Shown here one piece after another: positions 6,116 through 47,555 of a stretch of DNA of 64,000 nucleotides. The notes under the pieces were generated by a model. That model ran no database searches and was not told the origin of the DNA. It worked only from the letters and a program-made list of their open reading frames with translations. The DNA comes from Apostichopus japonicus. Taxonomy: Eukaryota > Echinodermata > Holothuroidea > Aspidochirotida > Stichopodidae. Every line of letters starts with the position of its first letter. The stretch's first letter is position 1. Made by a program: the position numbers and the translations under genes. The stretch spans positions 4,270,001 to 4,334,000 of the forward strand of contig NC_092562.1 in assembly GCF_037975245.1 (NCBI RefSeq), read 5' to 3'.

Positions 6116-8343
6116 TTACTGCTTTGTTCGATTAGATGGCAGTATGTCCGTGAAGAGGAGAGCCATTGTGGTGGATAGGTTCAACGATCCCAGTGTAAGT
6201 CACTCAAGTTAAATTAATCAACTCTACAGTCAAAACTCTTCATAATCTTATAATTTGTAAATTTGGATCATGAAGTATACCCTGAGGATTTTCATGCTGG
6301 TATTTTGTTCCATCAGCAATGATTTCATCATGCATATTCATCCCATTACTGATGATGATAACGACTGCCATGGTGATGACGACGAAACATTGTTTTAGCT
6401 TATATGATTGATCAAAATTGTTAACTTGGTCAAGAGCAAAGGTCAAGACAAGACAATTGAACGTTAACCAAGTCAAGAACGAAATATGGGGAGTTGCGTT
6501 TTTAAGCATTGCAGTTTTCCATCACAAACTGCAGAAGCAGGGTACAAGTTTGCTAGAGGTGGAAATGGATGTAATGTGTCTGTTTGTAAACATACAAAGG
6601 CATTTTTTATATAATCGTCAGGTGAAGTTTAGTCCAATATATCTATAGAAAACTAATTAATTTTTGTAAAATGAATGTTTTATATATTTTATATCATTTA
6701 ATCAATGGAAATTTCTGTCTCCAGTCCCATGTACTTTTGGATATCACTGTCATCAGGAAATGAACGAAAAAATGTGATGTTTTTCTTTTCTTTGAATTAA
6801 CAGTCCTACACTTGTAGAGAACTAATTATGAAAAATGGAGATGTTTCTATCTTTCATATCACTTCATGTTTGATTAATTTTGCCAGTTTTCTGTCTCCAG
6901 TCATGATAATGTATTTTGGGTAATATTAACTTACTTTATTTTATTTTAGAGTAAAGACTTCATCTTTCTGTTAAGCAGCAAAGCTGGAGGGTGTGGCTTG
7001 AATCTCATAGGCGCAAATCGACTAATCATGTTTGATCCTGATTGGAATCCGGCCAATGACAGCCAAGCTATGGCAAGAGTTTGGCGAGATGGACAGAAGA
7101 AACCCTGTTTCATTTATCGGCTCCTGGCAGTAAGTAGTTCCATGTTGGATTTCATCTTTCTTTTCTGTTCTTCTGAAGAACATATGCCATTATGACATCA
7201 CAGACCACCTGTGATCATCCACTCCAGGGAAGAATCATGGATTAGTCAGTCAAATGAGGTTACATTCAATCAACAATATAATGAATTAGGGGCAAGATAG
7301 TGAGATACAGTATTATTTGCAATGATCAGGTTAGAATGTCCTGCATTTCCAAAATATCACATGTCGGCCATCAAAACATCCCTTTTAATGTTTCTTCCTT
7401 TGAAACATGTCAAGACGACCAGCATTGCCATTCTGGCTTTTAAACGCCAAAAATGACAAAAATTTGCATTTTTCAAGTTTCATTGACCAGAGGGAAATGA
7501 AAATTCTGTCCTAACAGCAGTTTGAATCCGCTTTCTTATGGCATTGATTTTAATGGCCTTCCATTCAAGAGAAAGAAGTAGTAAATTTAAAGTCCTCCCA
7601 ACGAACATTGATAACATTTTAAATGTTGTTCAGCCAGACTTAAGGTTGCATAAATGCCTACACATCGATACGAAAACATTGGGTTTTCCCCTTCCACGCT
7701 TCACTCACTGTTTGTCTAAGAGACGCTGAAATTGCGAACCAACACAATTCCTAGCCAAAAACAGGATTGAATTGTCAGAAATAACAGCCAATCCGTTTTC
7801 GTAATTTGGCCGTTGGCGTCACTGAATAGCTGACAAGCCTGGAGATGAGACCTTTACAAGAAGAGAAATACTCCTCTTTACAATGAAACAGACTTGATTT
7901 GGAACACAGGTAATATTGAAGATCACTCTTTATTAAGTAGCCAATCGCAGTATACAGTAAATGTCCTGCTTTACCAGAGCATTTGAATGTTGGTCAATTA
8001 GAACAGGAAGCACTGGTTTATCTAAATTCGTTGGTTTCATTTTCATTAACAAGGTCAAGTTTTATAAAAAGCTAAATTAAATCTCAAGTTTTTCTCTCTT
8101 AAAACCTAAATGACCTTTCTTTTGTTTGTTTGTTTTTGGAAATGTAAGCATCAATTTCTTTGAATATTGCTTCTTACAGACTGGGACGATCGATGAGAAA
8201 GTATTTCAACGGCAGGCGCACAAGAGAGCGCTGTCAAGCTGTGTGGTCGACAATGAAGAAAACGTTGCCAGACACTTCTCGCTGAACGATTTACGAGATC
8301 TCTTCCAACTCAAGGAAACCACAAAAAGTGACACCCATGACAA
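6116..8343 (+). CDS. RAD54L: RAD54-like DNA repair translocase, three C-terminal exons (partial)
   Basis: Exons 6116-6194, 6950-7129 and 8180-8343 have consensus splice sites and keep frame. They encode the second RecA-like lobe of the SNF2 helicase: [13 protein letters not shown], then [16 protein letters not shown], then [20 protein letters not shown] (SNF2 motifs V and VI), then [19 protein letters not shown] and [12 protein letters not shown] with a final SDTHDK. This order and wording match RAD54/RAD54L closely. RAD54 remodels chromatin and stimulates RAD51 strand exchange in homologous recombination. The first exon starts mid-codon and the last ends mid-codon, so both neighbours are required. 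I found no upstream helicase-lobe-1 exon in 1-6115, nor the cysteine-pair C-terminal exon after 8343. It is either a gene with very long introns (the upstream one containing the antisense GPCR) or a partial duplicate. The three exons themselves carry no stop or frameshift. Confidence 0.85.
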
Positions 8344-9413
8344 GTATGTAATTCCATTTTATTTTATATTGTTCTTTTAAATAAATGTAAGCATTTTAAA
8401 TTAAAAAAATGCACACGTTAAGAAAGGCAGCCTTTTAGTTGTCTGATCAGGTGCAATAGATCCATACCAAGATGAAAATATTGAGTTGTAGCTGTGCTAA
8501 GGTCAAGAGCAAGACAAAAGTGGAAATTTTCATAATTTCTCCCTTTAGTTGATTTGTTTTCTTTGCAAAATGTGGTATTTGAAGCAGTCCACTAAAAATG
8601 TAAAAACGTGTTATGCTAATATCAACTCCAGTACTTGGAGGGAAAACAATGGCAGAATATCTGGTATTTATTTTATTATATTATTAATCTTAGTTTTAGG
8701 TTTAAAAGGTAAAAATAGAGAGACATGAAAAGAAGACCATAGTGAAATAAATCACTTTCAGGTGATTTTTCGTTTTTTTGCATAGAAGGATAAAATAACC
8801 AAAAATATGTTATCTTTTTTCTTGATTTACTGATTTTCTTTGCTTAAAACGTGTTGAAAATCATTGTAAATCTAATCAGGCAATTATAATAATTTGGATA
8901 CTTTTGTGTGCATGGAAGAACTACAATACCGAGAGCACAACAGGCACATACATGCAATAAACTGACTGTAAAACATATGTAAGCAATCCATTCATATCAA
9001 AGCTGAAATATACAATACATTCTAATAGATATCCTTTTATTATTATGCAAAGATACGCTTTTTAATTTCTGGTTCAATTAGAGGTAGGATTTTGAGGTAG
9101 AATAATTAAACTCATTAAACTTTGATTAAATTGTACCCAGCAGTCGAGATAAAAGTAACATTTTCATTTTATCTGTATGCTGCATGCATACTTCAAATGA
9201 TCTTTCTTCAAATGGTCTTTCATTTCATTCTGATTCTTGAACATGTAAATAATACTGAAAATATTGATACTGAATAGACAAAGAGTAGATGTGGATAGAG
9301 ATGAATGTTCTATATATAACTGAAAGAGAAATTATTTTGAAGGAAGAATAAACATTGAAGAATTGATTGCATTCGTCACTACAAACTATTTTACCTGTCA
9401 TTGATTGTCTCAC
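8344..9413. other. Non-coding stretch after the last RAD54L exon
   Basis: AT-rich sequence with no convincing exon, RNA gene or transposon termini. The expected final RAD54 exon, encoding a Cys-x-x-Cys and a tryptophan-rich tail, is not recognisable here on the plus strand. Confidence 0.4.
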
Positions 9414-10839: not shown

Positions 10840-13800
10840 TTAGACAGTGGTGCCCTGACAACTGGAGCCCATCCCACTGGTACATCCAAAGCAATGATTG
10901 TCAGTCATTATCCTTTGGTTCTCCAGTTCTTCAGCTTTCTGGATGTCCCAAACAGTTGGCCAAGCATTGGTAACTACAGAGAAAAAGGCAAACGTGAAAA
11001 TAACCAATCAAGGCGCAATTTATAAATACCATTTGAAATGTCAATTGACAATTTATATGTGTTAGGTTAACATCTACAGGGATTGTGAATATAGTAATAT
11101 CAAAAGTACATACATGGTTTGAAATCAAGCTGATATGCTATGAAAAACTTGAAAAGGAGCAAACTTGAACATGTAAAAGGCTGAAGTTGACATTGTGGTT
11201 ATAAAATATAGTGTCTTTAATAGTAATAACACAAAATTCTAATTTTTTCATCCAAAATTGAACATATATGTATTTTGACTGTTAGAGGCCCAATCATGAG
11301 AACACTTATCAATTGTGGGCTGTGGGGATTAAAAATCTCACAGGTACATTAAGTTATATGTAACTTCTGTTCTCAGAGGAAAGTCCATGAATGGAAATAT
11401 GTCTGGTCTGGGTCCACTGTCCTCTCAGAAAAGTGTCAAGTTTAGTGTCAAGTGGTTTATAAAGTGTCAAGTGGTTATAAAGAATGCTTTAGGATCTGAG
11501 TTTGCTGTGTTTGGTCTTTTTTTTTTTTAACTTGGGTCTTTGATGAGGGCTTCATTTCTCTCCTGAGCCTTTGTGGTTCCATTGCTTTGCATCCATCGGA
11601 ACCTCTATGTGTGTGTGTGTATGTGATGCCCTAGATGGTAAACATGGTATCTCAAGAAAGAAATGTGTGATTGATGTCATACTTGGTACCTACCTTGACC
11701 AGGGTCAGTAGGTGGTCCTCAATAGGGCTGTCATGTATATTAATGAGTGGGGCTAGTTAGGTGACCAGGGTGATTATATGTATTGTTTTGGTTCCCATCT
11801 CTTGAATGTTAACAAGTGGGCAGGGCTTACTTTGAATTGTAAAATTCTCTTCAACAGTATGTCCAATTTAGTTTATACTTGGCATGATGATGTAACTACA
11901 TAGTATGTACATGGTTTTTGCAACAACAAGTAGGCTTAAATTTTTTGGGACCATCTGGTCCCCAAAAATATTCCAGGCACATATTTGAGTCGAATGGGCC
12001 AAAATTTTCTCTCCACCTGGTTTTTCCACCACTGGAATATCCCTTTCATAATTTTTAACTGTTTTTTGATAGAATACCTGAATTTCGTGGCTTCTTCATG
12101 GGTATGTCTAACTGTTGGTTGAAGTCACAGTCAAACAGAGATCCGTCCCAGCCAACACTGATGTAGTTTCTACACATCAACCCTTGTAAGGAAGCTGGGT
12201 TGAAATTCCGTACCAAAACTTCCATGTAAGACTGAAGTTCATTTCTAAAATAGCAGAAGAACAAGATTCTTTGCTGTCATAACACAGACATTTCATGAAC
12301 TGAGCAGATATCAGCAGCATGTCAAAGGTCAACTGAAACGGAATACCATGATACAGAGTGCATGCTGTAACACTAAGAGGTGAGTTCCATGTCCTTTCTA
12401 AATCTAACTTATGATTCATTCTGAGCATGTGTATTTAACGACCCTGCTCATTGAGTAGTGTTGAAATGTTTTGCAAAGCACTAAATATGTTTATCTTTAA
12501 AACATTCCAATTGATTCTCAACCTTGAGGAATATTTTAAAAAGATCAAACTAGCATAGAAATTTCCTATAACTTAACATAGGCCTATCCAAGTGTTTAGC
12601 AGAGAGGGTACAGTACTAACTAGGCCTAGACTATGCAACTTGAACACATATGACCAACTGATTTAACTGATATAACAAAGTAAACGGCATATTACACTAG
12701 CAAGGAAATACACAAACTCTGGGCCTAACTCATTCATGTCGTTCACACTGTTAGATATTACACAACTGTCCTCGAAATATTAGTAGTCTAGAGTAACTGC
12801 TGTAGGAGGGAGGAAAGTTTAGGAGAGGATTCTGGCTAAAATACCTGTTAAATTACCGCAGTGATGGGTGCCGTATGAGTAACTGCTACTTCAAACTAGG
12901 TACTCACTCTCCCCTTAACCCCCTCCCCAGGACATCGATCAGCGTCCTCCTTCATAACAAACAAATATGGTTATCCTAATCCAAACTAGGTGCTCATGCA
13001 TGAAAGATAATTTGCACTCAAATGATCAAATTTACTTCTTGCACAAGACAGGACAATTTCATTTTCCTCCTTTAAAGTTGGTTAGTCAGTGTTTCTTAAT
13101 TCATTCCTGCTCAAAGTTTTCAAAAGAAGCTTGCAAGTTTGCCCACGAAACATTACCTACGATACAAGAAATCAGCAAATCTCTTGATAGGCATATTGGT
13201 CAGTGTAAACAAGTTGTTGAACTCAATGTTAAAACATTTCCAGAGTTCATCTTTGTATTTGGCTTCGAGATCTGCTTGAGGAGGTGGAAGGAATGCACCT
13301 GTTAGACAAGAACAAGAAAGAAAACTTCAAAGTTTAAACAAACTGTTCAGTCCATCACATAGTATTGCCTTGAAAAATGCTTTCAAATTAACTGGTCACT
13401 CACTAATTTGGCTGCAACAATTATCCTTTGGTTCTCCAGTTCTTCAAATTATTTCCCCTTTTCAGACATCGTGTCCATGATAACATTTCTATTGTCTGGG
13501 AATACTTTGCAAGGTGACAATTCCAGGTATACATGTACTTTTGAGACAAAAATTGGGACAATTCTGACCTCAAATTTTAGCCAATTTCCATACCTCAAAA
13601 GTTTCTAAAACTGCGCATATTATTCATTGTTCCTTGAACAGTAGTTTGAGTAATTTGAGCTAAAATCTATGAAAAAAATTATTGTTTATTAAAACACCCT
13701 CCCAAAAACAGCCATACCCTCCTCAATCCCCTCTGTGACAAAATATAAAAGCTACTACCTGATACAGTATAGTACCTATTGGGTTGTACACTAGGTGTAA

Positions 13801-16800
13801 CATTAGGCCACTGTCTGGTTTTCCGTATCCAAGAGCATTCAGTATCTTCAAGGCTTCCATACTTCTCTGAAACACTTGGCTACCCCTTTGCATGTTCACA
13901 TTCTTGGCACTGTTATACGAAAAAGAGAAATGGTGAAATCAAATGAGTGAAGCACACTATAATTACCAAAATATCTTGCGATACCAAAGACATTCTGCTA
14001 CTTTAGCATATGACAGTTTAAATACAGAAAAGGAATGTCATTAATTTCCTTGCAGTGCCATAAATCATCAAATCTCAGATCTAAATTTGACACAAAAGTG
14101 GTGCCCAAAAAATGTGTCTCATTTATTTAAAGAATTTACAGTAGAAAATTAAGAACATTTTAATTAATGTTAGAAATGACATCAGTAAATACTCTATGCT
14201 TATAACTAAATGATTGAAGTCTTAAATTTCATTATCGGAAAGATGTCTTGGGAACATGGAGTGATTTTAGCCTACCTGTAACATGGCAATGATGCAATCA
14301 CTGTGACTTCATGTTCAGCCAGAAAGTCAGCAGTATCTTCCTGGCCTGGCTCCAGGAGACAGGTCAAGTTACACCTATCGATAATGGTACGACCCAGCTC
14401 TCGTCCTCGCTTTACCAGGTAGCGAAATTCTGAACAAAGTTCTGGAGCTCCCCCTGCAGCGAGATTAATGAAAGGATGCTTTTATTTACACACAAGAAAG
14501 CCAGCAAAATTAGTACTTTGTATTTTCATTAACATCTTTGGGAAGTTTGTAACTTAGCACAATTCCATTTGCCTTTCATGTCCAGGATTGTGTGGTAGAA
14601 TATTCGCTATTTCAAATGATGAGCACAGACTTGGTAAATACAGTTTTAACACCTTCTAGATATTCCAACGATTGAAAATTTCACTTCATACAACTAAATA
14701 CTGCTACAAGCGACCACAAATGTGGGAGAAACCCGCAAGGGCTTATGGATTACAACTTACGCGTCGGGTGGCTTTCAATTCAACATTTTAACTCAAATTT
14801 GGAATCTTTTCAATTAAGAAAGTCATTTCAGATGGGACAGTAGATTGCTCTTGGATGAAAAACCCACCTTACTGTGACCCGGCCGGCAATCGATCCCCTC
14901 ACCTCCCGATTGCTAAGCCTCAATTCTTCAAATGCCACTGCCTTTATCCACTCGGCCACAGCACCGGTATATCAAAACCATTTCAACAGCAAGCTTTATG
15001 AAGCTGATGTTTTAAACAAAGATTCTGTTCAAAACCACTGGGACATGGTCATGGGTGATGTGGCAGGATTGGGAGGGGGGTTGGGGGAGGGGTGAGAATG
15101 TGTACCAGTTATATCCACTGTGTGAATGGTTGGACTTCTTTCTAAGATGTCCATGCATTTCTCAGCAGTCTCTCTATTCATCATTTCTTTCCTCTTGGGT
15201 GATGATTCAACATGGCAATGAACACAAGCCTGGTTACAGTAAAGACCGATGTTTAACTGTAGAACCTCAATCGGAGTCTTTCTCAGAAAGTGAGTTAATT
15301 TGGCTGTAAATAAACCAGAAAAAAATATGTAGTCTATTAAGATGAGATAAAATCTAAATGTCTTAATTGAGTCATTTACCCCATCACAATGTTTTGAGTA
15401 GTGAGTCACATGATCCTTAGCATATTTTGTTCATACACTTCAGAGTCAAGCTTGGATCTTTGTAACAGTGGCGGAGCTAGGGGTATTGGTCGGGGGGGCG
15501 AGAATGGTCTGTAGGGGCGCTTTCGACACTGTCTAAGCAGAGCGCCACCACAGGTTGGCGCGGAGCGTACAGAAATTTTTTGAGTAAAGATACTCCCTAG
15601 ATCAACGGAAATGGCCCTTTCCAGGCTAATTTGCAGATAAACGAAGAATAAATAGGTGTCATCGCCATTTTGACAGAAAATTACACCAACAAAATGTGAC
15701 AAATGTCAATAGGTATTTGAGAGCGCAATAAAAAAGTCAATAATCGCGAATAAGTAAAAAGTGGTAAAAAGCTGAAAAGGGCACTAGCAGTCCATTTGAG
15801 TCCGTCAGGGGGGGGGGGCATCTGCCCCCCCTGACTGTATGGACGCTCCGCCACTGCTTTGTAATATGCCATAGTTTTAAGGAACTTGCTAAACTTAGTC
15901 TCCATAATTTGCAATACTCTGTGAGCAAACATTCTTTCACAAAATTGAATGCAACTGGTGGAGTTTGTAGATACCCTCTTTGGGGTCACAATAACCTTTA
16001 GTAAATGAATGGTCGGCCCAGCTCTCGGCCCTTCAGATTACAAAGCTAAATGATGAAACAGTGAGCCATACAACATCACTGTACAGAATGACACATGTAA
16101 GCAAGTGCACAATGACTGAAAGTTGTACCTGCTGTATGTGCTTAGAAGATGTGCTTACGAAATGTTCAGTTATTGCACAACTACACAATGTAGACCAATC
16201 TCTGTGTACATGCCTGGTGGCATGTACATATTTATGTACAGCCTTAAACATTTAGCACTAACCGACAGTGTGCCATTAAAGTAGAAAACAAACATGTTGC
16301 TTGCAGAATATTACTAGGGGGCTACTAGCCAACTAATTCCTATGACACATCTATAAGACCTACCTGGTTTATAGGTGTGTGGCTGAGTACCTACTATTGT
16401 GAGCACTGCCTTCATGTATTTTTCTGTGTTTGATTCATGAAGACAACGTTTAACTAACCTACTTTACCCCCCCCAGCCCAAATCAAAACCACCACTACCC
16501 TCCCCACTTCGCCCCAATTTCTAATTCTTTGGCTAACAGGTTATCCCCAAAGTGACCTTACCACCATCATCTGTGGGAGTTTTCATCAGAAATGACCTAA
16601 AGTCAGGGACCTGAAGGTTGTGCAATGCCCGCTGTCTCTTTCTCCGTTCATCCTTGGTTAGTTGTTTCTGACCTAACTTCTTCAGCTGAGCTGCTGTAAC
16701 TTGAAAGTCTTTATTGACTTCCATGTCCCTTAGCGTTTCAGGTATGAGAGATGTCTGCAGAAAGAAAGAAAGAAAGTTAAGAAAAATATGTAAAGCTTGA

Positions 16801-17448
16801 CCATATATTGTATTGGGAGTTTCACTTACTAGGCATAAGAGGCAGGAAGCTATGACGACTCAACTTTCCCGAAAAAATATGTATACAAGTACTGATTCGG
16901 AAGCTGTCACATCATCTGTCCCAGAATGAACCTGGGAGGAGGGAGGAGGGGGAGGGTTGGATGGGTATTGGTCTACCAGTTGGCTAAGGCATTTCCTTTT
17001 AATTGTTAACAGAGTTAGTTTTGTCTGAGGTGCCAAATGTGCTGTTTATGTCAGGGCACAGTACCACCGGTTGGATCATTGCACTGTCAGCAGATTACAC
17101 CTCAGTCCAAACCTGGATGAGGGCTTTTAGGATGACGCAAAAGTCATCGGCCACACCATGATACTTAGAATGCTATTCATCTCTACCATGTACAACTCAT
17201 ATGACCATAGTTTTGCAATTGCAATTTAATTATAGTTATAGCCTTACCAAGTTTCTTTTAACATTCTGTTTTATCTCTGCCCCTCTCTGTATTTTCTCTG
17301 GCCTCTTCAGTTTGTGGGTGTGTACATCTACGCTTGTATTGTAGTCCGGCAAGGAAGTTTTCCCAGTGTCAGGTTGGTAAAGCACTGTGGTTGTACATAG
17401 CGGTTTAACCGATAGCTGAAATCTTTGACAGTATCGTAAGAAAGCCAT
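10840..17448 (-). CDS. arsS: ArsS-type radical SAM / Cys-rich domain protein (arsenosugar biosynthesis)
   Basis: Eight exons, 17448-17248, 16754-16562, 15303-15106, 14453-14276, 13909-13776, 13298-13157, 12244-12078 and 10973-10840, have consensus junctions and join in frame to 448 residues. Residues 142-161 carry TPIEVLQLNIGLYCNQACVH, with the radical SAM CX3CX2C cluster ligands Cys154, Cys158 and Cys161. Then follow DITGGAPEL, IDRCNLTCLLEPGQ, IASLPCYSAKNVNMQRG, VYNPIGAFLPPPQ and FNNLFTLTNMPIKRF. The C-terminal Cys-rich module has GLMCRNYISVGWDGSLFDCDF (373, 388) and HCFGCTSGMGSSCQG (432-445). This series is diagnostic of the ArsS family, which in bacteria transfers a SAM-derived adenosyl group to methylated arsenic, the step that leads to arsenosugars. 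About 130 N-terminal residues precede the radical SAM core. The first 20 are rich in Arg, Ser and Thr with no acids, suggesting a mitochondrial presequence. All cluster and Cys-rich cysteines are intact. The substrate in this animal is inferred from family membership only. Confidence 0.93.
14880..14975 (-). repeat. tRNA-derived (SINE-like) head in arsS intron 3
   Basis: Read on the minus strand, TGGCCGAGTGGATAAAGGC is a tRNA D-arm/A-box-like sequence. It is followed about 55 nt later by GGGATCGATTGCC, a degenerate B box. The Leu/Ser-like layout with a long variable region suggests an old tRNA-derived SINE rather than a working tRNA. The body may continue towards 14700. Confidence 0.45.
15466..15856. 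mobile_element. hAT-type MITE in arsS intron 2
   Basis: This 391-bp element has inverted ends CAGTGGCGGAGC and GCTCCGCCACTG. It is flanked by a perfect 8-bp target duplication CTTTGTAA at 15458-15465 and 15857-15864. Runs of G and C lie inside. No transposase frame is present, so it is non-autonomous. It sits in the intron between arsS exons 2 and 3 and leaves both splice sites untouched. Confidence 0.85.
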
Positions 17449-29500: not shown

Positions 29501-32500
29501 ATTATATAGCACCAATGTTTGTATACACTATATGGTCGGAAAGATTTCCATCCAATTCAAATTTGACAACCTAACACGGTATTCCCTCCGAATTGTTATG
29601 AAGCAAATATTGATATGTTTAGCTGTCACATCTTAGATACACATTTCTAGTCTGCCACTTGTTAGAGTCATCGTTAACAAGGTATAACCAGGAGCAAGGA
29701 GTATGCAAACTATGGATTTAATTTCAACTTAAATTGTGTGACTTTTTCATGATTCTTCAAAGTAAAAAAGTTGGATATATAAATAGAATGACTGACATTG
29801 GAATATTTTCTTTAAAAGAAAAATTACAGTCAGATTAATATCCTCATAGTAATACCCCTGATGGGATTGTCCCCAAATATTCTAGAACAGTCCAGATTTG
29901 GTCGTCCAGGGTCCAACTTCTGGTAGGGCCTTTTGTGTGAGTGTTACTGTACCTTGAAGGAACCTCACAGGTGAATTTATTTGCAGTTAACATATTCTGT
30001 GAAACTTTGTTTGGACACTTCACACTTTTTTCTACTTTTCGCTCTGAATTTGCTGGCATTCATGTTGAAATATCTCTTTTAAACCTCAAATTGTCTTGAC
30101 AACAAATATGGAGTCTGCCAAACTTGACTGAAAAGTACATTTCTTGAGTGTTGTAGTCCCTGAAAGTGAATGTGTAAGGTTTACCCCTTAATAAGGCCAA
30201 AAATCATTGCTAGTCCAACTAATGGGACAAAAAGAAACATTTTTTGTATACCAATTTATAACTTTATTCAAATCTGTATAAGTTTTCTTTGTCTCATTTT
30301 GTTATTTGCGTTCATTTTTTTTGTCCTTCAGTTGATGGTGCTTGGAGTGGCTGGAGTGAATGGACTCTCTGCTCTGTCTCTTGTAATGAAGGCACCGAAG
30401 AACAACGGAGGTCTTGTTCCAGTCCTTCCCCACAATACGGAGGTCAGAACTGTCCAGGACAGAAAAAACGAAGACGGGTTTGCGTCCCAAAAATTTGCCC
30501 TGGTACGGGATCCCTCAAGTTTTTGCAGTGAAAAGTTTCTAAGAGCAATATATTCGCAGGTTCAGACAGATTTTTTGTTCAAATTTACTTTGAAATAGGG
30601 ATTTAAATCATTTTTGGGGGTTTATGAATCTATTGGGGTATTTTTAACTTGGCAGCACCATCAATTTTTGTATGCATGGTTTCCAATTGATTCATTTGGT
30701 TTTCAGTCAATGGTGGTTGGTCTCTGTGGTCTTCATGGTCAGAATGTACTCACAGCTGTGGATGGGGCACCAGATACCGGCAGCGTACCTGCACCTCCCC
30801 CGCCCCCATGTACGGAGGGTCATTCTGCGTCGGTACTGCCCAGGCTGGTGCTAGCTGCTTGATCCAGGATTGCCCAGGTATGGAATGGATGCTGGTCTCA
30901 CATTTTGTGTTCAACCAAGCTACATATATCTATATAGAGTTTCAACAATCAGAGATGTTACTATACTACCCTTACAATAAGTATATATACATAATTGCTC
31001 AATTTTTTTCTTGATTTTGGTTTAATCAGATCCCTACGGAGGTTTCTGCAGTAAAATATCTCAGGAAAAGAAAACTATTATAATTGTAAAAATGATGCAC
31101 AGAATAATAATATTTGCTGATTCACTTGCTCCAATTATCCTCTCACACAATTCTTACCGTTCTCAGTCCAAAGCTTTTTTTAAGCTTTTTAAGTCCCTGA
31201 CTTGCATACAATTCAGGCTAGTTGGGATATCTTGTCATGGTTGTATAATTAAATATGTTCAACTTCATTTCATCTATGTCAGTGCAGTTAGCTCTACCAA
31301 GGACATTAAATGTATATTTGATATTAATTATATACTAATGTTGATAGCCATTTAGTCTGAGAAAGTTTTATCTTATAATATAGACTGATGTTTGGATTCT
31401 GTACATGTTTGATACCCATACAGTGGATGCCAGGTGGGGCCGCTGGGGCCCATGGACTCCCTGTAGTCATACATGCGGTTCAAATGGTACCTACACCAGG
31501 ACCAGGCTCTGTAATGCACCCCCAGCTCTTTACGGTGGAGAGGACTGCACTGGTATAAACAATATGACCTCAGACTGTTATGTGACCAGATGTGAAAGTA
31601 AGTCCTAAATGACTTTCAACAAAAAAATTATACTTTTATGATTCTTGTTTTGTTCAATACTAATTCATGGTAGTTTGCAACTTCCTACAAGTATACTTCT
31701 TGGGCAGGATGTTATAGTTCAATAATCCTATTTTCTCTCAAAATATTTGTTTTACAGGCCCAGCTCAGATGAGCATATCAGTAAACTAGATCAGATATGT
31801 AAAACTGACTTCGTTGCACAGCTGCTGAAATTTTTTCCTGGAACAATTCGTACGGGTATCGCGTAGCAAGACGCTATGTTAAATGCCGGGAAAAATGCTA
31901 CACGAATGTAAACTGAAATCCTATTGATTGATATCACAGTGTTTTGCTATACACTGGAGCATATTATTTTCAGTGATATTTACAAGAAATATGATTCAAA
32001 AACCTAAAAACTTGCTATCAATACTAAAAAAAGGAAACATCAAAAAATAATTCCCTGATTTTGCAAACTATGTATCGAGCCTTGGATGTCTAATTTTGTT
32101 TGTCTTTTCTGATTTTCATTTTTTTCGGGTTTGAAGTCGATGGAGGCTGGTCTGACTGGAATCAATGGTCAGAATGTAGCCGGAGCTGTGAGACAGGCTC
32201 AGAGTTGAGAAATCGAACCTGCGACAACCCCCCTCCAACCCCACCCTACGGGGAAGACTGCCACGGCCCAAGTAACCAGTCTCGTGAATGTAACGTTCAC
32301 ATCTGTCCAGGTCAGTAACCATCTTCGGGGACAAAGTCTAGAGTGCCACGTTCATTTTCAAGCAACAATATTGAAAACAACTCTGAAACAATAATGTTAT
32401 AGCTACTCTATAAAACATGTATTTGATGCAACATTGTGAGTAAAATGTCAGCATTTACTACTATAGACTGAATGTATTTGGTGATTTTTTTTGGGGGGGG

Positions 32501-35500
32501 GCATTTGCAACCCTGTGTAGATTAGGTATGCAATGTTTTATTGTTGGATAGGAGTGGAAGTCAAAGAGGTGTATACATCTTCAGAAGGAAAGTGAAATTG
32601 AGGGGAAAATAACGATTTATGACTGAATTTAGTACACATGGGTTTCATTTAATTATTATAGAAAAAGAGGTTCTTAACATGAAATACATCAAGACACAAC
32701 TGAAATTATATATGGTAATTTATTCAAGAAATGCAAAATGTCATCAAAGAATGCCAAACTCTTGTAATTCAAAAGTCCAAATTTCGAGATGACAGACTAG
32801 AGCGAAAAATGTTCAATTTAAAGGGTGGCTTCTAATATCATGAGATTATCTCATTTTCAAATCAGAAGGTCAATTGGATTAGAAGTTGAAAAAATTTCTC
32901 TCAAGGAGAAAAAATTGAATGGAGGAAGCTGGAATAGAGTTTAAGATGTCTTGACTTGAAGGGAGCAGTCTTTTTATATCACACATTCATCTACTCTCAA
33001 TATTTGAATATTCAACAGTTCAGGGAAATTGGACGAGCTGGACGGGATGGTCAGATTGTCCTGTGACGTGCGGAGGCGACATCCAGACACGTTACCGCCT
33101 CTGCACTAATCCTCCTCCTCTCTTTGGAGGTGATCCTTGCCAGGGGGACATGAATGAAGAAAGAGATTGCAGTACAACTGGTTGTCCAGGTAACAGGGAT
33201 TGTCAGTCCAACAAGGACCAACAGATTAGTTGTCAGCCTAAATAATTTATTTCATTAGTCAAGAGATCCTATCAGAATATTGCCTTTTCCTAACAAACAA
33301 CAAACAATTTGTTTTGTCTAATTCTGACATTGCTCAGCTGCAAAACAAAAAGGGTGTGAGCAAAGTTTGATATATTTTTGTTTATATATGGAGAAGTTTG
33401 GCTGCTGTTTCAGTACATGAGCCTTATAATGAGGGTGGAGGGGGAGATTAGGCTTTTAGGGGTAAGCTCAGGAAGGTATCAACCAAGTTTAGCCTCCTAC
33501 TTTGTAAAATATATGATTGGACATGATGTTGCTCCTTTCTCTTCGACGTGATATATGAGAACTCTTCCATTACAATTGTTTTGACAGAGTTAATTACTTG
33601 TTATTGATGTTGTTGTGCTTTGGAGGTGGCAACAAGCTCAGATTTTTAGCATGCCCTTGCAGTCTGATGTAATTACCATCTGGTCTTATTACTAATATTC
33701 ATCTTCAGCTGATGCTAATTATCAATTATGCAAAACATATTTCCTTATTACATAATATATCTGTTTGTCTCTAAACAGTTGATGGAAGTTGGGCTTCATG
33801 GGAACCATGGTCTGAATGTACTGTGAGCTGTGGAGGGGGCAGCATGACCAGAGAGAGGACCTGTAGCGACCCTACACCCATTTGGGGCGGAGATGACTGC
33901 CCTGCGGGAGATGAAATCCAGCAGACGTCAACTTGCAACGGGTTCAATTGTCCAAGTGAGATACATTTTTGTGAAGAATGATTGTGCTGGTATTTAATGT
34001 TGAAGAATATTTCCCGCTATTTTTTTTTTTTTTAGTTTTTATTATTATTATTTTTTTGGGGGGTGGGGGGGCGATATGAAACTGTTAGATAATTTAAAGT
34101 CAATCCAATCAACAGAGCTCTAGTCAGAAAGCAGGGTTTGCTAGATTAATTAAGTGTTAAAATTTACATAAAGGGTAAGTGGAATATGCATTGAAGAAGA
34201 TGACTAGTGGAGCAGTCACTCACCGTTCGTTGTCATTTGCTCCTTTATTGAGTTTTGTAACGTTACAATATCTAAAAGAATTGCTGTAATCAAATGTAAC
34301 AGACCTGAGAGAAGAGATAGTAGTTAGTATGTGGACCTTATGCGACATATTTATAAATTACAGCCTAGTAATACTATAATATACTACTTTACTATACTAC
34401 TATACTGTTAAGCCTACCCCTAACTTCAGCTCACTATAGGAGCGCTGCTTGGGTTCCACATAAAGGGGTTACTGCAACAATCACAGACTGGTATAATTGT
34501 GTCAGTTAAAAGGCACATCTCTGGATCTTATACAGGTTTAATAAATTCACCTCTTGATTTGTTTTCAGTTGATGGAGATTGGTCAGAGTGGTCAGTCTGG
34601 GAGGCATGTCCAGTGACCTGCGGGAGCGTGGCCATTCACAGGAACCGGTCATGTGACAACCCCGTCCCACAGTACGACGGGAGAGAATGCCAAGGAAGTG
34701 AGATGGAGTCTTTGACTTGTGCAGATACCCCATGTCCAGGTACGCCACACATGGGTATAGATGTACAGTCCTTTTGTAATCTACAAGGTCAAAGGTCATC
34801 TGAGAATCATCCAATCACACAGCTGTCAACAGCTATACATAAATATATATATACATCGGTATAGATGTAAAGTCCTTTTGTAATCTACAAGGTAATCACT
34901 CAATCACACAGCTATCAACAGCTATACATAAATATATATACACATCGGTATAGATGTAAAGTCCTTTTGTAATCTACAAGGTAATCACTCAATCACACAG
35001 CTATCAACAGCTATACATAAATATATATACACATCGGTATAGATGTAAAGTCCTTTTGTAATCTACAAGGTAATCACTCAATCACACAGCTATCAACAGC
35101 TATACATAAATATATATACACATCGGTATAGATGTAAAGTCCTTTTGTAATCTACAAGGTAATCACTCAATCACACAGCTATCAACAGCTATACATAAAT
35201 ATATATACACATCGGTATAGATGTAAAGTCCTTTTGTAATCTACAAGGTAATCACACAGCTATCAACAGCTATACATAAATATATATATACATCGGTATA
35301 GATGTAAAGTCCTTTTGTAATCTACAAGGTAATCACACAGCTATCAACAGCTATACATAAATATATATATACATCGGTATAGATGTAAAGTCCTTTTGTA
35401 ATCTACAAGGTAATCACTCAATCACACAGCTATCAACAGCTATACATAAATATATATATACATCGGTATAGATGTAAAGTCCTTTTGTAATCTACAAGGT

Positions 35501-35529
35501 AATCACTCAGTCACACAGCTATCAATGGC

Positions 35530-35560
<31 letters not shown>

Positions 35561-38500
35561 TCGCATGTCGTGAGCTGGGTATCCCAAAAGGGTGGAGGAA
35601 TAACGCTTTTCCGAAAACTTTGTCACAAATTTGATTGGTATTTCACAACCCCTTATCCTACAGTGCTGGTTAATACCTCATTTTAAGCCTAATTTAATAT
35701 GCTTTCAGTGTGGAGAAACATGAGATCATACAGTGCTGTGTAAAAAAATGGCATCAGTTTGAATGAAAAATGCCAGGGGTGGAGGTGCAGGCGGATGCGG
35801 TGCAGGCGGATGCGGGAGTGAGCAATATATGAAAAATCATGGGCATAAGTTCAAATAACTGGTTTCTTTTACCATGCTTTTACAAATTTAGACAGGAAGG
35901 AATGTAAAAACAGTATTTAAGTTGATTTTTTCAACAATTGATACGCAATAAGTCGTGACTTTTGGTTAGAGTGCATATTTCTGTAATTTTGGCTAAAAGT
36001 CCATATGCAATGATGGAATGGGCATTCATTACCTTAATTACTGGTAATCCTATTAGTGAGCCAATTTGAATATTAAAATAAGTTATTTGTTAGTCTATTC
36101 TTTCATTTTTAAATTCATTTTCATTACTTCAAGTGGAGGAACCTACTATTTTGCTTTAACAAAATAAGCCATACATCTGGGTTAGGAGTGGAAAATTTTG
36201 GTAATTTCAGCCATTGGTATTGTACGCAACAAAGGAATGGACATTCAGTACTTAATCCCATAAATGAGCCAATTTAAATATTAATTGAGTTATTTGTTTG
36301 TCTTTTCTTTCATTTCATAACTTCAAGTAGAGAAACCTCCTAATTTGTTTTAAAATAAGTCATGTATTTGGGTTGGAGTCAAAATTTTGTTATTTCAGCC
36401 GTTGTATTATACGCATCAATGGAATTGATTTTCTTTACCTTAATTAATCCTATTAATAAGCCAATTTGAATACTTTAATGAGTTATTTGTTCTATTTTTT
36501 CATTTTTAATTGACTGTAACATTAATTGCAGTACCTTAAGAACTTGCTTGTGTATATATTTCTCTTCTTGACTTTAATTTCCTTAATGATAGAATAAACT
36601 GTTCATTAATTACACGTAAAAATGTCGTTGACCTTGCTGATGTAATTAGCATATGAACTTCTTAATGTAAAATATTTTGAATTATACCATTTGAAGTATT
36701 ATCATGTTCAGAACAAATCATCCAAATCTGGTAAATTTCTTGCATGAAATAAAAATTTGGTAGGTCATTTTGTGAAAAAGGTCCGATTTGAGAAAAACGT
36801 GTTTGAAAATTGAGATTAACATAGACGACTGTGTATTAATTAATTAGTAATTAAGGATTATCTCGAAAAATAAACATGTTTTATGGCTAAAAATGGTGTT
36901 AACTATTAGAGGCTATCAATATATACAAAATATCAAGAAATATGTTTTTTGCCATTTTTAACCCCGTTATTCAAAAGGTGCCCACCTTACGACATGCGAC
37001 CATATATATATATATGTATGTATATATATATGTATGTATATATATATATAGATATATATATATATATAGATATATATATATATATATAGATAGATATATA
37101 GATATATGTATGTATATATATATATAAATATATACATATATACATATATTGTCATTTATGTATAGATATTTATAAAAGCCTTATATTTTGTCATATAAGC
37201 ATAATTTTTTACTTCAAAAATGAGACATCAAACACAGCAACTTGTTCTAACAACATTGTAGCGGTTCTCTAGGTTTTATCTTACAAGTGTTCTATGTATG
37301 TTATGTTTTTATTAATAAAAATATACTTTTGCACTTTACAAAGGCAGTTGAGTTAATTTATAGTTTTAACCACATACCGAAGGCACATCAAAATTGTTTG
37401 CTTTTCATAATTTTTGTCTTTTATTTGGTTTAATAGTCCAGCTACTGAAGTGCAATGCTATGAGACATTAAGTATCACATAGGGTTGCATCGAGGGCCTA
37501 CTCCAGTACATAAGAAGTCTATCTATAGAACTTTAAGCCAGCTTAAAATCCATCCCAGCAGGAATAACTATGAAAGCAGACATGCTATAATGATACAAAG
37601 ACAAATGTGTGACAAAACATTAACGATTGTCTCACAACTTTTTTTCCGTTTCCGTCAGTGAATGGAAGCTGGTCTCAGTGGGGACACTGGGGTGAATGTA
37701 CAAAGTCATGTGACCATGGAATTAAGACAAGGACACGATCATGTTCAGACCCATCAACGGCTCACGGCGGCTTCAACTGCCGGGGAGATCAGACTGAAGA
37801 GATGGAAGATGACGTACATGGGACCTCATGTAACAGTATCCCTTGCCCGAGTGAGTTATACCTATACTTAGAATTAGTTAAAGGAGTGAGGACTCCCGCA
37901 CAAAGAAACGCCTGATGCCGGTAATCTGACCTAGTTTCGAATGAGGTGTAAGTGTTAGACACCACCATCGATCCCAGAAAATACACACACACCGCTTGCT
38001 TCTGTCGGTAATTAGACACTAGTGTACAGTCAATACATGCAGCTACGGTCAATACCCAGAACACAGTGTACATAGCAGCGATGGACATCTCAGGTCCAGA
38101 TAAAAGATAACACGGTATCACGTTTTATTACTGTCTGCATTTTGTAGCGACAGGATAAAAACTTCACTCGCAAGCAACGGAAAGTTAACTTTTTTCAGAG
38201 GGCGGCACGCGGTTTGGGGCGAGTCTTCACTGCCTTTTAAGAATCAGATGTGTTTGCTCGAAACTGCAGCTTAATATAATTGCTAAAGCGCGTTCTATTT
38301 TGCTTGTTACAGTCTAATTCCACACAGGTCATCAGTATTGGCCCCCCCCCCAAATATAAGCATGTTCATTTTTTCCATTTTTTTAAAACTTTTAAACAAC
38401 AAAGACACAAAATTTCAACTGTTCGTTGCCGCTTGTTGTTTGCAGTTTTGTATGACAATTGTTTTAATTATTCTGTGATAGTTCATGGCGGATTTACAGA

Positions 38501-40286
38501 CTGGTCGGAGTGGCCTCCCTGCCCAGTGTCTTGTGGAGGTGCATCCATAACCAGGAATAGGTCCTGCAGTAACCCAAAGCCCATGTACGGGGGTGACAAC
38601 TGCACAGGCGCACCCACAGACTCCATGATATGCAGTGGACTGATACAGTGTCCCAGTAAGTGCATTAACATTTAACTGATACTTGAGTTAAAGGTATGCG
38701 GTGGAATGACACAGTGTCCTAGTAAGTAAATATTCTTTTGCGGCGGCTGACTCCTAGATATGCTGTGGGTTTGACACAGTGTCCCAGTGAGGTAAATATT
38801 CTTTTGTGGCGGTAAATATTCTTTTGCGGCGGCTGACTCCTAGATATGCTGTGGGTTTGACACAGTGTCCTAGTAAGTAAATGTTCTTTTGTGGCGGCTG
38901 ACTCAAAGATAGGCTGTGGGCTGACACAGTGTCCCAGTAAGGTAAATATTCTTTTGTGGCGGTAAATATTCTTTTGCGGCGGCTGACTCCTAGATATGCT
39001 GTGGGTTTGACACAGTGTCCTAGTAAGTAAATGTTCTTTTGTGGCGGCTGACTTGAAGATATGCTGTGGACTGACACAGTGTCCCAGTAAGGTAAATATT
39101 CTTTTGTGGCGGTAAATATTCTTTTGCGGCAGCTGACTCCTAGATATGCTGTGGGTTTGACACAGTGTCCTAGTAAGTAAATGTTCTTTTGTGGCGGCTG
39201 ACTCAAAGATATGCTGTGGGCTGACATAGTGTCCCAGTAAGGTAAATATTCTTTTGTGGCGGTAAATATTCTTTTGCGGCGGCTGACTCCTAGATATGCT
39301 GTGGGTTTGACACAGTGTCCTAGTAAGTAAATGTTCTTTTGCAGCGGCTGACTCAAAGATTTGCTGTGGGCTGACACAGTGTCACAGTAAGGTAAATATC
39401 CTTTATGGCAGTAAATATTCTTTTGCGGCGGCTGACTCCTAGATATGCTGTGGGTTTGACACAGTGTCCCAGTAAGGTAAATATTCTTTTGTGGCGGCTG
39501 ACTTGAAGATATGCTGTGGACTGACACAGTGTCCCAGTAAGGTAAATATTCTCGTATAAGTGACTCTAAGATTTGCATTGGACTGACAGAGCGTCCCAGT
39601 AGGTAAATATTAATGTGTAGCTGTCTTTAAAACATATGCAGTGGACTGACACAGTAAACGAATAAATTATACCTTTCTTGAAGCTGACATTTGCAGGTAT
39701 AGACACAATATCTCAATGCTTATTCACCAGATGTAGCTACATGATTGTCAATTTTAAACGGACCTGTAATATTTAGTAATAGCTAGTAGGTAGCTAAGGT
39801 GAATAAGGGAAGGGGGCTGTGATGGTGGGTGGGGGAGTTAAAATAAGATGGGTGCATCTACATAATAAATGATACATGGAGAAACACTGTTATTACTGTT
39901 ATAGTCAGGTTATTATGAAATACTTTGGTGACATTCTTAAAACTGAGGATACTGTTGTCAAATAAATCATGGTAGACAAATCAATTTGACTTCAATCTCT
40001 TTAATCCTATTTTCCCCCTCCAGTGGACGGTAATTGGGGTCGATGGCTAGACTGGGCCCCCTGCAGTAAATCCTGTGAGGGCGGGATCACCTCCCGGATC
40101 CGTCTCTGTAACAATCCTTCTCCTCTATACGGAGGGAGAATCTGCGAAGGATCAAACGATGCCACGATGTCCTGCAACTCTTTCTCTTGTCCTGGTGAGT
40201 ATACAACATCTTTCATGACTCAAATGTTTCGATGATATCTATCCCTCCTTTGATTGATCAGAAATCAATATAATTATCCAAGTTAG

Positions 40287-40317
<31 letters not shown>

Positions 40318-43300
40318 CCACTGTAATGTTAAGCCACTGCACTATTCTCATCTCATGCCAATCCAGTTCCATCAAGCTTCAAACAATCATAATATTAAGC
40401 TTTCGTAAATGAAATTGATAAGAATTTGTTGGCCTTAGCTGTTTGAAGTTTATCATTCCATGTGCACAATTGTATAAATGTGATACATTTTACTTTATAT
40501 ACCTGCTACCTTAAGGTATATTTGATTGAGGTGGAGATATGATCAAAAAAGGTGGATGGGCGGGGGAGGGGGGGGTGTGGATACTTACTCTGAGAGTATG
40601 AAATAACATATCTCGTCATATCTTTGGCATTTTCTTCTGCTGATTGTCATCTGTAGTACATGGAGGGTTCTCTGAGTGGACTGACTGGGAACCTTGTTCT
40701 AAGAGTTGTGGAGGAGGCCAGACTTTGCGGACAAGAAATTGTACCTCACCGTCACCGCAGCATGGCGGCCTGCCTTGCTATGGAACCTACACGGAGAGGA
40801 GGCTCTGTGCTGCTTTTTACTGCCCAGGTACTATGAAACAAACATCAAAACTGGAATATATCTAAAGCCTAAGGAACGAAACATATTTTATATTGAATTT
40901 TTGGCAATAATGAAGGAACAGATGATTTAGAGAAAGATTGAGAGGGGTAGACACTTTCCTTGGTACTAAAATGGTGGTGTGACTTTAAGACTATGGTACA
41001 AATTGTCAGTTTTAATTTTGTTTATTACGCAACCTTTTTTGATGGGAAACTAGCCACAAAATTATGCTTGAATCGAACAAAACTTGCTTTCCCTCTGTAT
41101 AAATGATATTGTTATAATAATATAATAATCCTGAATTGAGCTACTGTGTACTCGGGCTCTTCTGGAGCCAAAGACAAAATTGAGACAATTTCTGTTTCTT
41201 TTTCCTTTGCATTTTGTTCCTTTCATTTCTTTGGGGGGAGGGGGTGGGGTGGTGGATAGAGGGCAATTGTTTCAGGGGATATTGTGGTGATATATACAAC
41301 ATGGGACAATTGTGTTAGTCACTTGCATTGCAGCTCACCTTCTTGGCTTGGGGGGTGGGGGGATTCTTGGTTGGGCTGTGCAGGGGTTCACTAATTCAAA
41401 ATCACTAATTTGTGGATATTCAATGCCAAATAAAGAATGAAGGGGTGAAGCATTAAAGGCCGATACAGGGGCATATAAACTCAAGCCAGTTTAAACATGT
41501 TAAGGCTGATAATATCTCCAGATGTATATTTTCTCCTCTTGTCAGTTCATGGAGGATGGAGTAGCTGGACTGATTGGTCAGAGTGTGGTGTTACCTGCGG
41601 TGGTGCCATCGTCAACCGTACCAGGACATGCAACAATCCAGCCCCCAAGCATGATGGACTCCCTTGTGAGGGGACTCTGGAAGACTGGATGATATGTGCA
41701 AACAACTCTTGTCCAAGTAATTAAACTGATATATTTGTTGATTAATAATAGGAACAGACCTGCGCATAGGGTTTGATAGATTTTAAGATAGTTTGACACC
41801 ACTATTCAACTGACATAGCCACCCTTCACTCCTCACCCAAATCAGTTTGGAATTGAAATAAATATTAATGGAAGCTCTTTACTTATTTACGGGTTGGTGG
41901 TAAGGATTTCATCTTGAGTAGTGCATAAAACTCCCAGGTTACTGGCATTTTTGGAAAGATACAAATTTGGGCTTGGAAAAGAATATCAAAGTTTTTGTTG
42001 TTGTTGTTGATGTGATTTAAAGTAACTATCATTGTTCAATGAGCATTCCTTTGTCTTCACTCATTATGTTAAGTCGACGGGTTTTGGTCAGCGTGGACTG
42101 CCTGGTCAAACTGCAGCGTCCCGTGTGGCGAAGGAATCCAGGTGACCAGGAGGGAGTGCGATGACCCTTCACCCCAACATGGAGGAGACTCCTGTCTCGG
42201 AGAGAGGAAGAGACAGTTGTACTGCACTATTGAAGAGACATGCCGAGGTATGCCCTGGCCTGTTACTCTATGTAGTTTGTCATTACAGTTCCAGAAAAAG
42301 CTGGATAGCTAACAAGATCTCTTGTAGGGACCCCATGGGCCTCGTAATAGTTTTCAGAGCAACAAATTTAAAATAGGCCTCAAAACTTAACAACATGAGA
42401 AATATCACTTTCTTATTTGGGTGCAGGGAAGGCCAGGAAAGGTTTAAAAAAAAATACTCTATGCCAAAAGGGAATTTGCAGGGACTTCATACTCTGGACC
42501 CATAATGGTTCTCAACCCCTGTACTCCCCAGGGCCTTTATGCCAACTGAAAACTGGACCCCAGCAATGTGCACAACACAGTCATGTTGAGGGCATAGCCC
42601 GCACCTTCAACACCATTGAACATCGGTCTGACTCCTGAACTTGAATCTCAAATCGTGTGTCCTGGGCCATGTGCTTTATTTACTTTCAATCAAAATGTTC
42701 CAAAATAATATATGGTTCCAGAAACTTTCAATCCATTATGAGCTCTGTCATATGTTCTGTAACAGCTTTGTTTTCATTGCACACCTAACAGGGTTTATTT
42801 TCTGTTTGCTTCTTCAGAAGAGATTCCAGTTCCTGTTAACATCACTGGATCGGTCCACGTTAACGAGCAGACACTCACATTTATTCTGGGATGGACCGTC
42901 AGTCCTGATTCATGGCAAGAAGTGGACCATTTCGTTCTGCAGGTCAGTATCAGATTTCTATACTGGAATAGATATGTGAAACGAATATGGCCAACAGAGT
43001 TTTGTGTGTGTTTTTTTGTATAGAACTGATGATTTGATTAATGCAAGCACTGGTTCCCTGGAGATCATCTGGTCAGTGGTCACCTTGCTTCATCTTACTC
43101 TCTCATGGACATGAATGCCTATTTTTGTGGTCGTTATGAAAAAGTCTCCCGAGGGAAGGCAAAGAGAAATTTGGAAAGTGTTTTGCCTGTGATGACAATT
43201 TTACACAAAAAAAATTAATCCATCTGGCTTTTCTTTTATGTTTTAGCGGGAGGGGAAAAATTGTTCTTTATTAGTGTTTTTTGAGACTAATTATGCTGCT

Positions 43301-45055: not shown

Positions 45056-47518
45056 TTACTCAAGAGGGGTAGCTTTCGGTCTTATTTTCATCTCTGTTGC
45101 CTTAAGGGATATGTTGAGACCACGCCACTCAGACCAGACTATCCCTTTAGTATCCACCTCCTCACCATGGCTACGGTACAGGCCATTCAGGTTGCTATGG
45201 TAACAGTTTGTGAACCACCAACCGGATTGAAAGTATGCAGCGCAATTGCCGTTGGTTGAGAGGTCGTTGTCGTAGTCTGGGGTAGTGAAAGGAGCGTGGT
45301 TATGACTTTTGAAAGCATCACCTGTGAAAAAAAATAAAGGGTTACAAATATTAAAAAATTGTACTTTGCTCAGCACTGTCAAAATTTGATGAAGATATCT
45401 TAAAAAGAAATATTTATTAATTCAACAAACTAAGAATTTTACTTTATTGCTTTTAAACTTTGGCACTTTGTTTCTTCCTGGTAAGTTTTTTTTTCAGAAG
45501 TGAAAGTTACTCAGCAAAGTTCCTAATCACTGCAATGAAACAAAAGAAAATGCCGATTCGATTGGGAAAACTTGTAATAAACTTTACTGAGTCTCAAAGC
45601 CTTTAGTCTCTGTTCAACATAACTGGCTCCACATTTGATCTTTTTTGGTTAAATGTTCATCTGCAAACAAAAGGCTCGCTGTTACTAATACCCATGTTGA
45701 TGTCACTAATCTACTAATATCTCAAAAACTGTTGTGATGTCATACCTGCATCACCACCATTATAAGAACCAATCAGGAGCTTGTATCTTGTCCCTTCGTC
45801 TCCGACCTTGAAGCGATCATAAATAGCAAGACGGATTGCATCCTGGAAGTCTTGTAGTTCTACTCGCAGTTCGTAGTGGTCTTGCGCCGTCATCCAGAAT
45901 AAGTTTTCATTTCCCATCCAATAGTCCAAGTTCTTACTCCCGAATCCTTTTCGATAATCGACCCAACCACGGTTAAATCCTGTTGACCCGTCAGTCCGTC
46001 GTTGAATGACCTGTCAAGGATACGGCAAGGACTAGTCTGAGTTAAGTTATTTAGGAAAGCAACTTGAGTCGACAGGACTTAGGAATCAGAAGGGGAAGGG
46101 GTTAGAGGAAGCCAACACTTGTAACACCTTTGTAGATGACTAAACTCAAGTTGGATCAAAATTGTAAGAAATTTCTGGAATTATTCCCAAAATCAAGCCT
46201 ACAACCCAAGAAATTGCTCTTAAATTTTAAATATGGATTTATTTACAGAACATAATTGTCTTCACAGGAACATGTTGAATGCTATCTTCAAAACTTTGTA
46301 GTATATAGATTCGGTATAAAGGTTATGTATATAGGTTGTGTATATAGATCCGGTATATAGATCACGTATAAAGATCCGGTCTTTAGATCACATTAATAGA
46401 TCTGGTCTATAGATCCAGTATATAAATCCGGTATATACATCTGGTCTATAGATCCAGTGTATAGATCCGGTAAATAGATCTGGTAAATAGATCAGGTTTG
46501 TAGATTCAGCGATAATTACGAGATTGTTTTTGTGCAGCAAGAGAAAATACTTCTTACATTTGTTAAAAGTATCAAGTAATTTATAGGGCGTTAAATGTAA
46601 GCACAGAAGTGGAGTGTTAGCTCAGTGGTTAACGCCGGTGCCTTTTAATCATAAGGTCCCCGGTTCGAGTCACTCCCAGATTAATGTATGTCGTCCAGTT
46701 ACAGAGTTGTTGACAATTAACAATTCATAATCATGGACGTTAAATATGAATGTAAGAGTACTGACTTCGGTCAGCTTGCGGCTTTGATAAGCCAATGAGG
46801 CTTCTTCACAAGTTCCTGCTTGCAGGAGGATCTAAAATACATACATACATTCATACAAAAAAAAACTACATACAGTAATCCGTACTCTGACAAGTTGAAA
46901 ATATGTATTATTATGTATTAATTAAAAATAATTGCAATAGAATGGTTGGATATATACCATACTGTTCCACTAGGCCTCCACCCCCTCTCCATAGAATTAA
47001 TACTCCCCATACGTCTCAATTTTATTTATAAGGATACAATATTTTGAATGTTCATCCACATGATGATGTGTGCTGACCGTGATGCGTCACCATGGTGATG
47101 ACGGACGTCAAGGACCACACTTCTATGATGATGATGACGTTATCATATAATAATCGTAATAGTACTCACGGTCCATCCACCGCCATCTGTCTCCATGTCG
47201 CAGTAAACTGTGAACGGTTTGCTGCCCTCTATAGGTTTCACGGTGTATACACCAGATTCGCCCGTTATTTCACTGCAGTCCTTAGGGTGGTCAGTATCAT
47301 ATTCGACTACGGTATATCATTGACAAAAGAAAAAAGCAAATTATGACAAGTAGGTGACGTCATAGATTACCTGTGATTCAGTGCAAATCAATGCAGCCAG
47401 TCACGTGGAGAGCCAAGTCCACCCTGAGGGAAATTACGTCACCACATTTATTTTGTAAGTCTTCATTTCTCTTCCGTCAGAACCCCTCCCCCTCCCTTCG
47501 CCAGGCATAAATACAGAA

Positions 47519-47555
<37 letters not shown>

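Follow-up and report, generated by a model that had tools for sequence, protein, structure and literature searches.

An intron-bearing nuclear arsS gene in an echinoderm genome and a possible host arsenosugar pathway of bacterial ancestry

Where marine animals obtain their arsenosugars and arsenobetaine is a long-standing question. The arsenosugars are usually ascribed to dietary algae or to symbionts. Food-chain transfer of arsenic compounds is spoken of in an extract of one paper (PMC10456119), and for earthworms an extract of another describes uptake from soil (PMC3838358). The DNA considered here is a stretch of 64,000 nucleotides of the Apostichopus japonicus genome (positions 4270001-4334000 of contig NC_092562.1, here C2), and by the window we mean this whole stretch. 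It carries a gene for ArsS, the radical S-adenosylmethionine (SAM) enzyme of bacterial arsenosugar operons, and raises the question of whether the animal itself may make such compounds. We give a probability of about two-thirds to a working arsenosugar pathway in the host, bacterial in ancestry, in which a nuclear, intron-bearing echinoderm arsS was acquired from bacteria long ago, has been kept intact and acts as bacterial ArsS does. That arsenosugars are produced by echinoderms themselves, and perhaps by further invertebrates of the sea, via a horizontally acquired bacterial pathway of nuclear ArsS and a fused two-domain glycosyltransferase seems to us evenly poised.

As judged by profile comparison, the evidence that the window gene is a full-length member of the TIGR04167/ArsS family is decisive. 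The protein matched this NCBIfam model with 427.4 bits (cut-off 300, E = 2.9e-128) over profile positions 2-302 of 303, and the next best family among its 17 NCBIfam matches reached 35.5 bits; another radical SAM subfamily was ruled out by this gap (427 vs 35 bits). In Pfam, DUF3641 (PF12345) was matched completely (1-134 of 134, 177 bits) and Radical_SAM with 37.5 bits. The bacterial rows used for comparison numbered 86, six from plasmid loci (of 52 matching records) and 80 from genome loci (the best 80 of at least 590 confirmed relatives). The CX3CX2C cysteines (C154, C158 and C161) and the C-terminal cysteines (C373, C388, C432, C435 and C443) are all present in the animal protein and each is Cys in 86/86 bacterial rows, as expected from the original prediction, which had described the cluster and Cys-rich cysteines as intact. 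The animal ArsS keeps 81 of the 84 columns conserved in at least 95% of the bacterial rows, all eight conserved cysteines included, and deviates at three (V221I, G268Q and A437S); the genome loci were retrieved via patterns around DCDFNQ and HC[YF]GCT, and conservation at these motifs is partly a selection effect. Cys255 stands at a family-variable site, which is C in 66 of the 86 rows.

TIGR04167 is given as a predicted prokaryotic selenoprotein in a review table (PMC9312934, extract), and another review names it a single time. We rejected the idea that animal ArsS is already known as a eukaryotic selenoprotein: a selenocysteine codon is unneeded, and the protein has Cys at every site that is all-Cys in the bacterial rows. 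An algal selenoproteome paper contains no mention of radical SAM or arsenic, and a metazoan selenoprotein paper none of Fe-S (iron-sulfur) or oxidoreductase.

Rebuilt from the DNA, arsS consists of eight coding exons on the minus strand (window 17448-10840). All seven introns are GT-AG with compatible phases, and the predicted coding sequence of 1347 nucleotides (448 amino acids) has no internal stop. Exon boundaries were set manually at GT-AG sites with the family motifs as a guide. The splicing is predicted from DNA. The model agrees exactly in its coordinates with the complete, intron-bearing gene of eight exons described earlier. The exons are, in window positions:

17248-17448, minus strand: exon 1, start codon included (17448); N-terminal extension with a weak likeness to a mitochondrial presequence
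16562-16754, minus strand: exon 2, remainder of the N-terminal extension
15106-15303, minus strand: exon 3, CNQACVHC radical SAM cluster motif (C154, C158, C161)
14276-14453, minus strand: exon 4, GGAPE motif plus core; splicing creates the ITGGAPE joint
13776-13909, minus strand: exon 5, coding
13157-13298, minus strand: exon 6, in which DUF3641 begins at residue 305
12078-12244, minus strand: exon 7, MCR...DCDFNQ motifs (C373, C388)
10840-10973, minus strand: exon 8, HCFGCTSGMGSSC motif (C432, C435, C443), stop included

Exon 1 and the start codon were placed from the open frame and the splice donor alone. The ArsS match begins at residue 138, and residues 1-137, outside the ArsS and Pfam matches, constitute an N-terminal extension. 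Its first 25 residues hold three K/R and no D/E, and their amphipathicity is not significant (8.5% of shuffles were equally high); mitochondrial import is only suggested by these features. A bacterial locus (L063, match 27-446) was rejected as a homologue with the animal extension, being a bacterial open reading frame (ORF) whose upstream part is spurious read-through.

Contig C2 is 32.56 megabases (Mb) long; the assembly comprises 35 contigs and totals 671.6 Mb. When TIGR04167 was searched genome-wide, all six matches fell on exons of the window arsS, so that one copy was found; this search ran exon by exon with no match over the cut-off, and the model also gave matches in 14/14 control genomes, one of them over the cut-off. 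The mitochondrial contig (C35) carries COX1. Table 9 was the best-scoring of five genetic codes tried on this gene, and in a table 9 alignment with bovine COX1 (a reference entered by hand) AAA aligned with Asn in 10/11 cases, AGA with Ser in 4/6 and ATA with Ile in 13/23. The frame after COX1 is presumably ND4L. We take the codon use and the COX1-ND4L order to be the echinoderm code and gene order, the code being common to flatworms as well; the mitochondrial codon use points to an echinoderm. A transfer RNA scan at the COX1 locus, run with the bacterial code, found none. Five more COX1 matches, in pieces, lie on contig C29 (14745-31219), which is either a second mitochondrial-type contig or holds nuclear copies. 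The setting on a 32.56 Mb contig in one copy, with animal genes on either side and an echinoderm-code mitochondrial contig in the same assembly, agrees with the earlier claim of an endogenous animal nuclear gene.

The relatives of this gene in our comparison are bacterial. Identity of the window ArsS was 43-54% to the six plasmid proteins (54% to that of Cupriavidus), up to 56% by tblastn to the 80 kept genome loci, and no higher than 58% to any of the 86 rows. A careful maximum-likelihood tree of 87 rows placed the animal protein within a set of 25 rows with support of 95/94, chiefly Myxococcota, Pseudomonadota and Bdellovibrionota. No exact sister was supported (48/43), its end branch was long (0.71 vs a median of 0.33), and a quicker tree left its placement unresolved, in no starred set. 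The rows comprised the nearest 80 genome and six plasmid loci, with no outgroup family and with the animal ArsS as the only eukaryotic row. Because the tree has no outgroup family, it is the score, rather than the tree, that excludes a neighbouring radical SAM family. Of the phylogeny proposed in the original prediction, with bacterial, algal and metazoan homologues, the tree covers the bacterial part: the animal ArsS lies inside a supported set of bacterial ArsS rows, and its sister is not supported. The tree is consistent with an old transfer from bacteria and singles out no donor group.

Phage records gave no arsS match. Among viral contigs, 4 of 65 pattern matches encode relatives, and a scan with the single protein gave three pattern matches and no relative. 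The four IMG/VR viral contigs concerned (L094-L097) have partial arsS matches, each close to a contig end, and could represent cellular DNA that borders prophages.

In bacteria, arsS can lie beside relatives of other arsenosugar genes. At least one partner (a TIGR04282, TIGR04283 or ArsM-like relative) was found in 46 of the 80 genome loci, with TIGR04282 relatives in 21 loci, TIGR04283 relatives in 27 and relatives of ArsM-type methyltransferases in 26-27, at E up to 1e-8, with no control set and some short flanks. Annotation names such partners at four of the six plasmid loci; L002 carries no annotation, and in the flanks of the Burkholderia plasmid locus (L007) no partner was found.

The animal genome also encodes candidates for these partners. 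The sole genome-wide matches to TIGR04282, a search that responded in 3 of the 14 control genomes, were three collinear exons on contig C20. The predicted gene around them (C20:26416009-26428531) has 11 exons and 10 GT-AG introns and encodes a TIGR04282-TIGR04283 fusion of 531 amino acids, which scored 167.1 bits to TIGR04282 (cut-off 134) and 197.7 bits to TIGR04283 (cut-off 182) and matched DUF2064 and Glycos_transf_2 in Pfam. Its introns were placed manually. The exon 4 acceptor was chosen since a stronger-looking site leaves a stop. Two other sites, the donor of exon 7 and the acceptor of exon 9, appear weak, and 4.4 kilobases separate exon 10 from the downstream exon 11; these joints are less sure. 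At the N-terminus a single hydrophobic stretch precedes basic residues, which by eye suggests a membrane anchor. Both glycosyltransferase domains were matched in 20 of the 86 bacterial arsS loci, and two (L061, Isosphaeraceae, and L039, Kofleriaceae) have the fusion in the same order. The L061 fusion is 34.6% identical to the animal one over 489 columns, and its locus additionally holds arsS and an ArsM-like gene. By predicted gene structure, the nuclear genome of the animal encodes all three enzymes that characterize arsenosugar operons in bacteria, and the co-occurrence of arsS with the glycosyltransferase fusion is the strongest evidence that ArsS may retain an arsenosugar role. The original prediction had held that, with an endogenous arsS, the host itself might synthesize or modify arsenosugars. 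The family score, the single chromosomal copy, the tree and the fused glycosyltransferases speak in favor of this, and the finding is stronger than was then claimed because the glycosyltransferase partners occur in the same genome. That the animal produces arsenosugars is a well-motivated proposal.

We infer the catalysis and substrate of ArsS, the order of steps, the subcellular site and the bacterial donor. The enzyme most likely acts like bacterial ArsS, and the pathway would run as follows. A [4Fe-4S] cluster on C154/C158/C161 would cleave SAM to give a 5'-deoxyadenosyl radical, which would react with trivalent dimethylarsenic to form 5'-deoxy-5'-dimethylarsinoyl-adenosine. The C-terminal cysteines of DUF3641 probably bind an auxiliary cluster or the substrate. 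Adenine would then be taken off by a host nucleosidase or phosphorylase, and the sugar aglycone would come from, or be attached by, the C20 fusion protein. The outcome would be animal-made arsenosugars from methylated arsenic, either the animal's own or dietary. The name of the ArsS product and the adenine-removal step are given here partly from general background. Xue 2019 and Cheng 2021 are said to be the primary papers on bacterial ArsS biochemistry. According to an extract of PMC8552651, the Synechocystis enzyme (SsArsS) acts alongside ArsM in the opening steps by which arsenosugars are made, and arsenic adenosylation by a radical SAM enzyme is cited in an extract of PMC12159101. For an algal arsenolipid, an extract of PMC10456119 gives as a possible route the entry of arsenic into the ribosyl part of SAM and the later action of an adenosyl nucleosidase.

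Several observations weigh against a host arsenosugar pathway. With arsS on C2 and the fusion gene on C20 there is no operon-type linkage, and elsewhere in the window no pathway partner or other arsenic gene was seen. In 34 of the 80 bacterial genome loci no pathway partner was found in the flanks examined, some of which were short. In earthworms, according to an extract of PMC3838358, no arsenosugars were found and uptake was favored over synthesis. Searches for an arsenite methyltransferase also recognized none: NF008823 gave nine weak matches genome-wide (best 50.7 bits vs a cut-off of 263), NF038099 gave a single hit (29 bits, three stops), and a fragment of human AS3MT, entered by hand, had no match in the animal genome. 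NF008823 responded in 14/14 control genomes and NF038099 in 12/14, and four of the nine NF008823 matches, their frames read by eye, look like generic methyltransferases. The absence of AS3MT is weak evidence, because these AS3MT/ArsM searches ran exon by exon with no animal genome of known AS3MT as a positive control. That neither AS3MT nor ArsM was recognized leaves room for a genuine ArsS that acts mainly on dietary or microbial methylated arsenic, the animal adding only the adenosyl or ribosyl part and performing no methylation of its own. This explanation, which we consider rather unlikely, accords with the presence of arsS and both glycosyltransferase domains. However, in addition to the weakness of the negative searches, the legend of a figure on AS3MT distribution includes the sea urchin Strongylocentrotus purpuratus (PMC5398495, extract).

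It is also conceivable, if quite improbable, that the protein was re-purposed after transfer and now serves another substrate such as a metalloid, a nucleoside or a peptide. The long end branch, the 137-residue extension outside the ArsS match and the lack of arsenic genes seen elsewhere in the window would fit such a change, but the family columns are near-completely conserved and the genome also encodes both glycosyltransferase domains by which arsenosugar operons are marked. There is a very small chance that arsS is a decaying or unexpressed relic. The gene is known only from DNA, but the frame is open across eight exons, the splice sites are intact and the conserved columns are kept almost entirely. 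Bacterial contamination or symbiont sequence in the assembly has a negligible probability. The closest sequences compared are bacterial, this being the one animal genome in the comparison, but none exceeds the 58% identity given above, and the gene structure refutes contamination: the seven introns, the animal genes on both sides and the size of the contig rule it out.

If a functional host pathway of bacterial ancestry exists, part of the arsenosugar in marine animals would be an animal product, animal metabolism would gain the formation of C-As bonds by a radical SAM enzyme, and the finding would bear on the reading of arsenic in seafood echinoderms. The presence of arsS and both glycosyltransferase domains in a host genome makes the origin of arsenosugars directly testable. 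No report of an animal ArsS was found by title or abstract among the papers listed from the open-access literature, subscription papers being mostly outside this scope.

The other genes of the window include a rhodopsin-type G-protein-coupled receptor, an SNF2-type helicase, thrombospondin type 1 repeats and fibrinogen C domains. The helicase exons (about 6950-8380, plus strand), which we take to be RAD54-like, lie tail to tail with arsS, and 6950-7192 is Helicase_C in Pfam. Upstream of arsS on the same strand is a methyltransferase gene of the Methyltransf_11 type (24946-21898, minus strand, six exons, 281 amino acids). It was ruled out as ArsM by its 31.6 bits to the ArsM selenoprotein model (cut-off 510), and its best NCBIfam match was BioC (54 bits vs a cut-off of 185). 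Judged by eye, a series of exons at 30262-42309 (plus strand) encodes thrombospondin type 1 repeats with one domain per exon; the one checked (30262-30528) is TSP_1 in Pfam. Fibrinogen C domains at 45059-54299 (minus strand), confirmed by Pfam for 45059-45421 and 53973-54299 and otherwise read by eye, are perhaps neighboring ficolin/FREP-like genes. Long ORFs of a short tandem repeat (GHCVSPQ...KNIYRHKR...) with two frames open occupy 38722-39626 on the minus strand, and four near-alike ORFs on that strand (59488-59748, 60765-61049, 61407-61685 and 62677-62937) are probably a local repeat family.

Among known systems, the animal gene resembles bacterial ArsS in the whole-length family match, the CX3CX2C motif and a DUF3641 with five conserved cysteines, and differs in its eight exons, its 137-residue N-terminal extension, its Cys255 and the lack of an operon. 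The animal genome shares TIGR04282 and TIGR04283 with bacterial arsenosugar operons, fused as in L061 and L039, whereas its genes are unlinked and have introns, the fusion has a putative membrane anchor and no ArsM was recognized. ArsL, the arsinothricin enzyme, is likewise a radical SAM enzyme that forms a C-As bond, but it moves a 3-amino-3-carboxypropyl group (PMC8552651, extract); we set it apart by this description, and no ArsL-named model was among the NCBIfam matches of the window ArsS. By sequence, the window ArsS had no close chain in the PDB (best E = 0.0025). An AlphaFold2 model of bacterial ArsS from L008, built on an alignment with 50 others of the 80 genome loci, had a predicted local distance difference test score of 92 and a predicted template modelling (TM) score of 0.91. 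Its nearest solved folds are the SPASM/twitch radical SAM enzymes SuiB, EpeE/YydG and SkfB (TM 0.48-0.59 by query length), which share its fold and differ in sequence (identity 14-18%), and this likeness would be in keeping with DUF3641 cysteines that hold an auxiliary cluster or form a substrate site.

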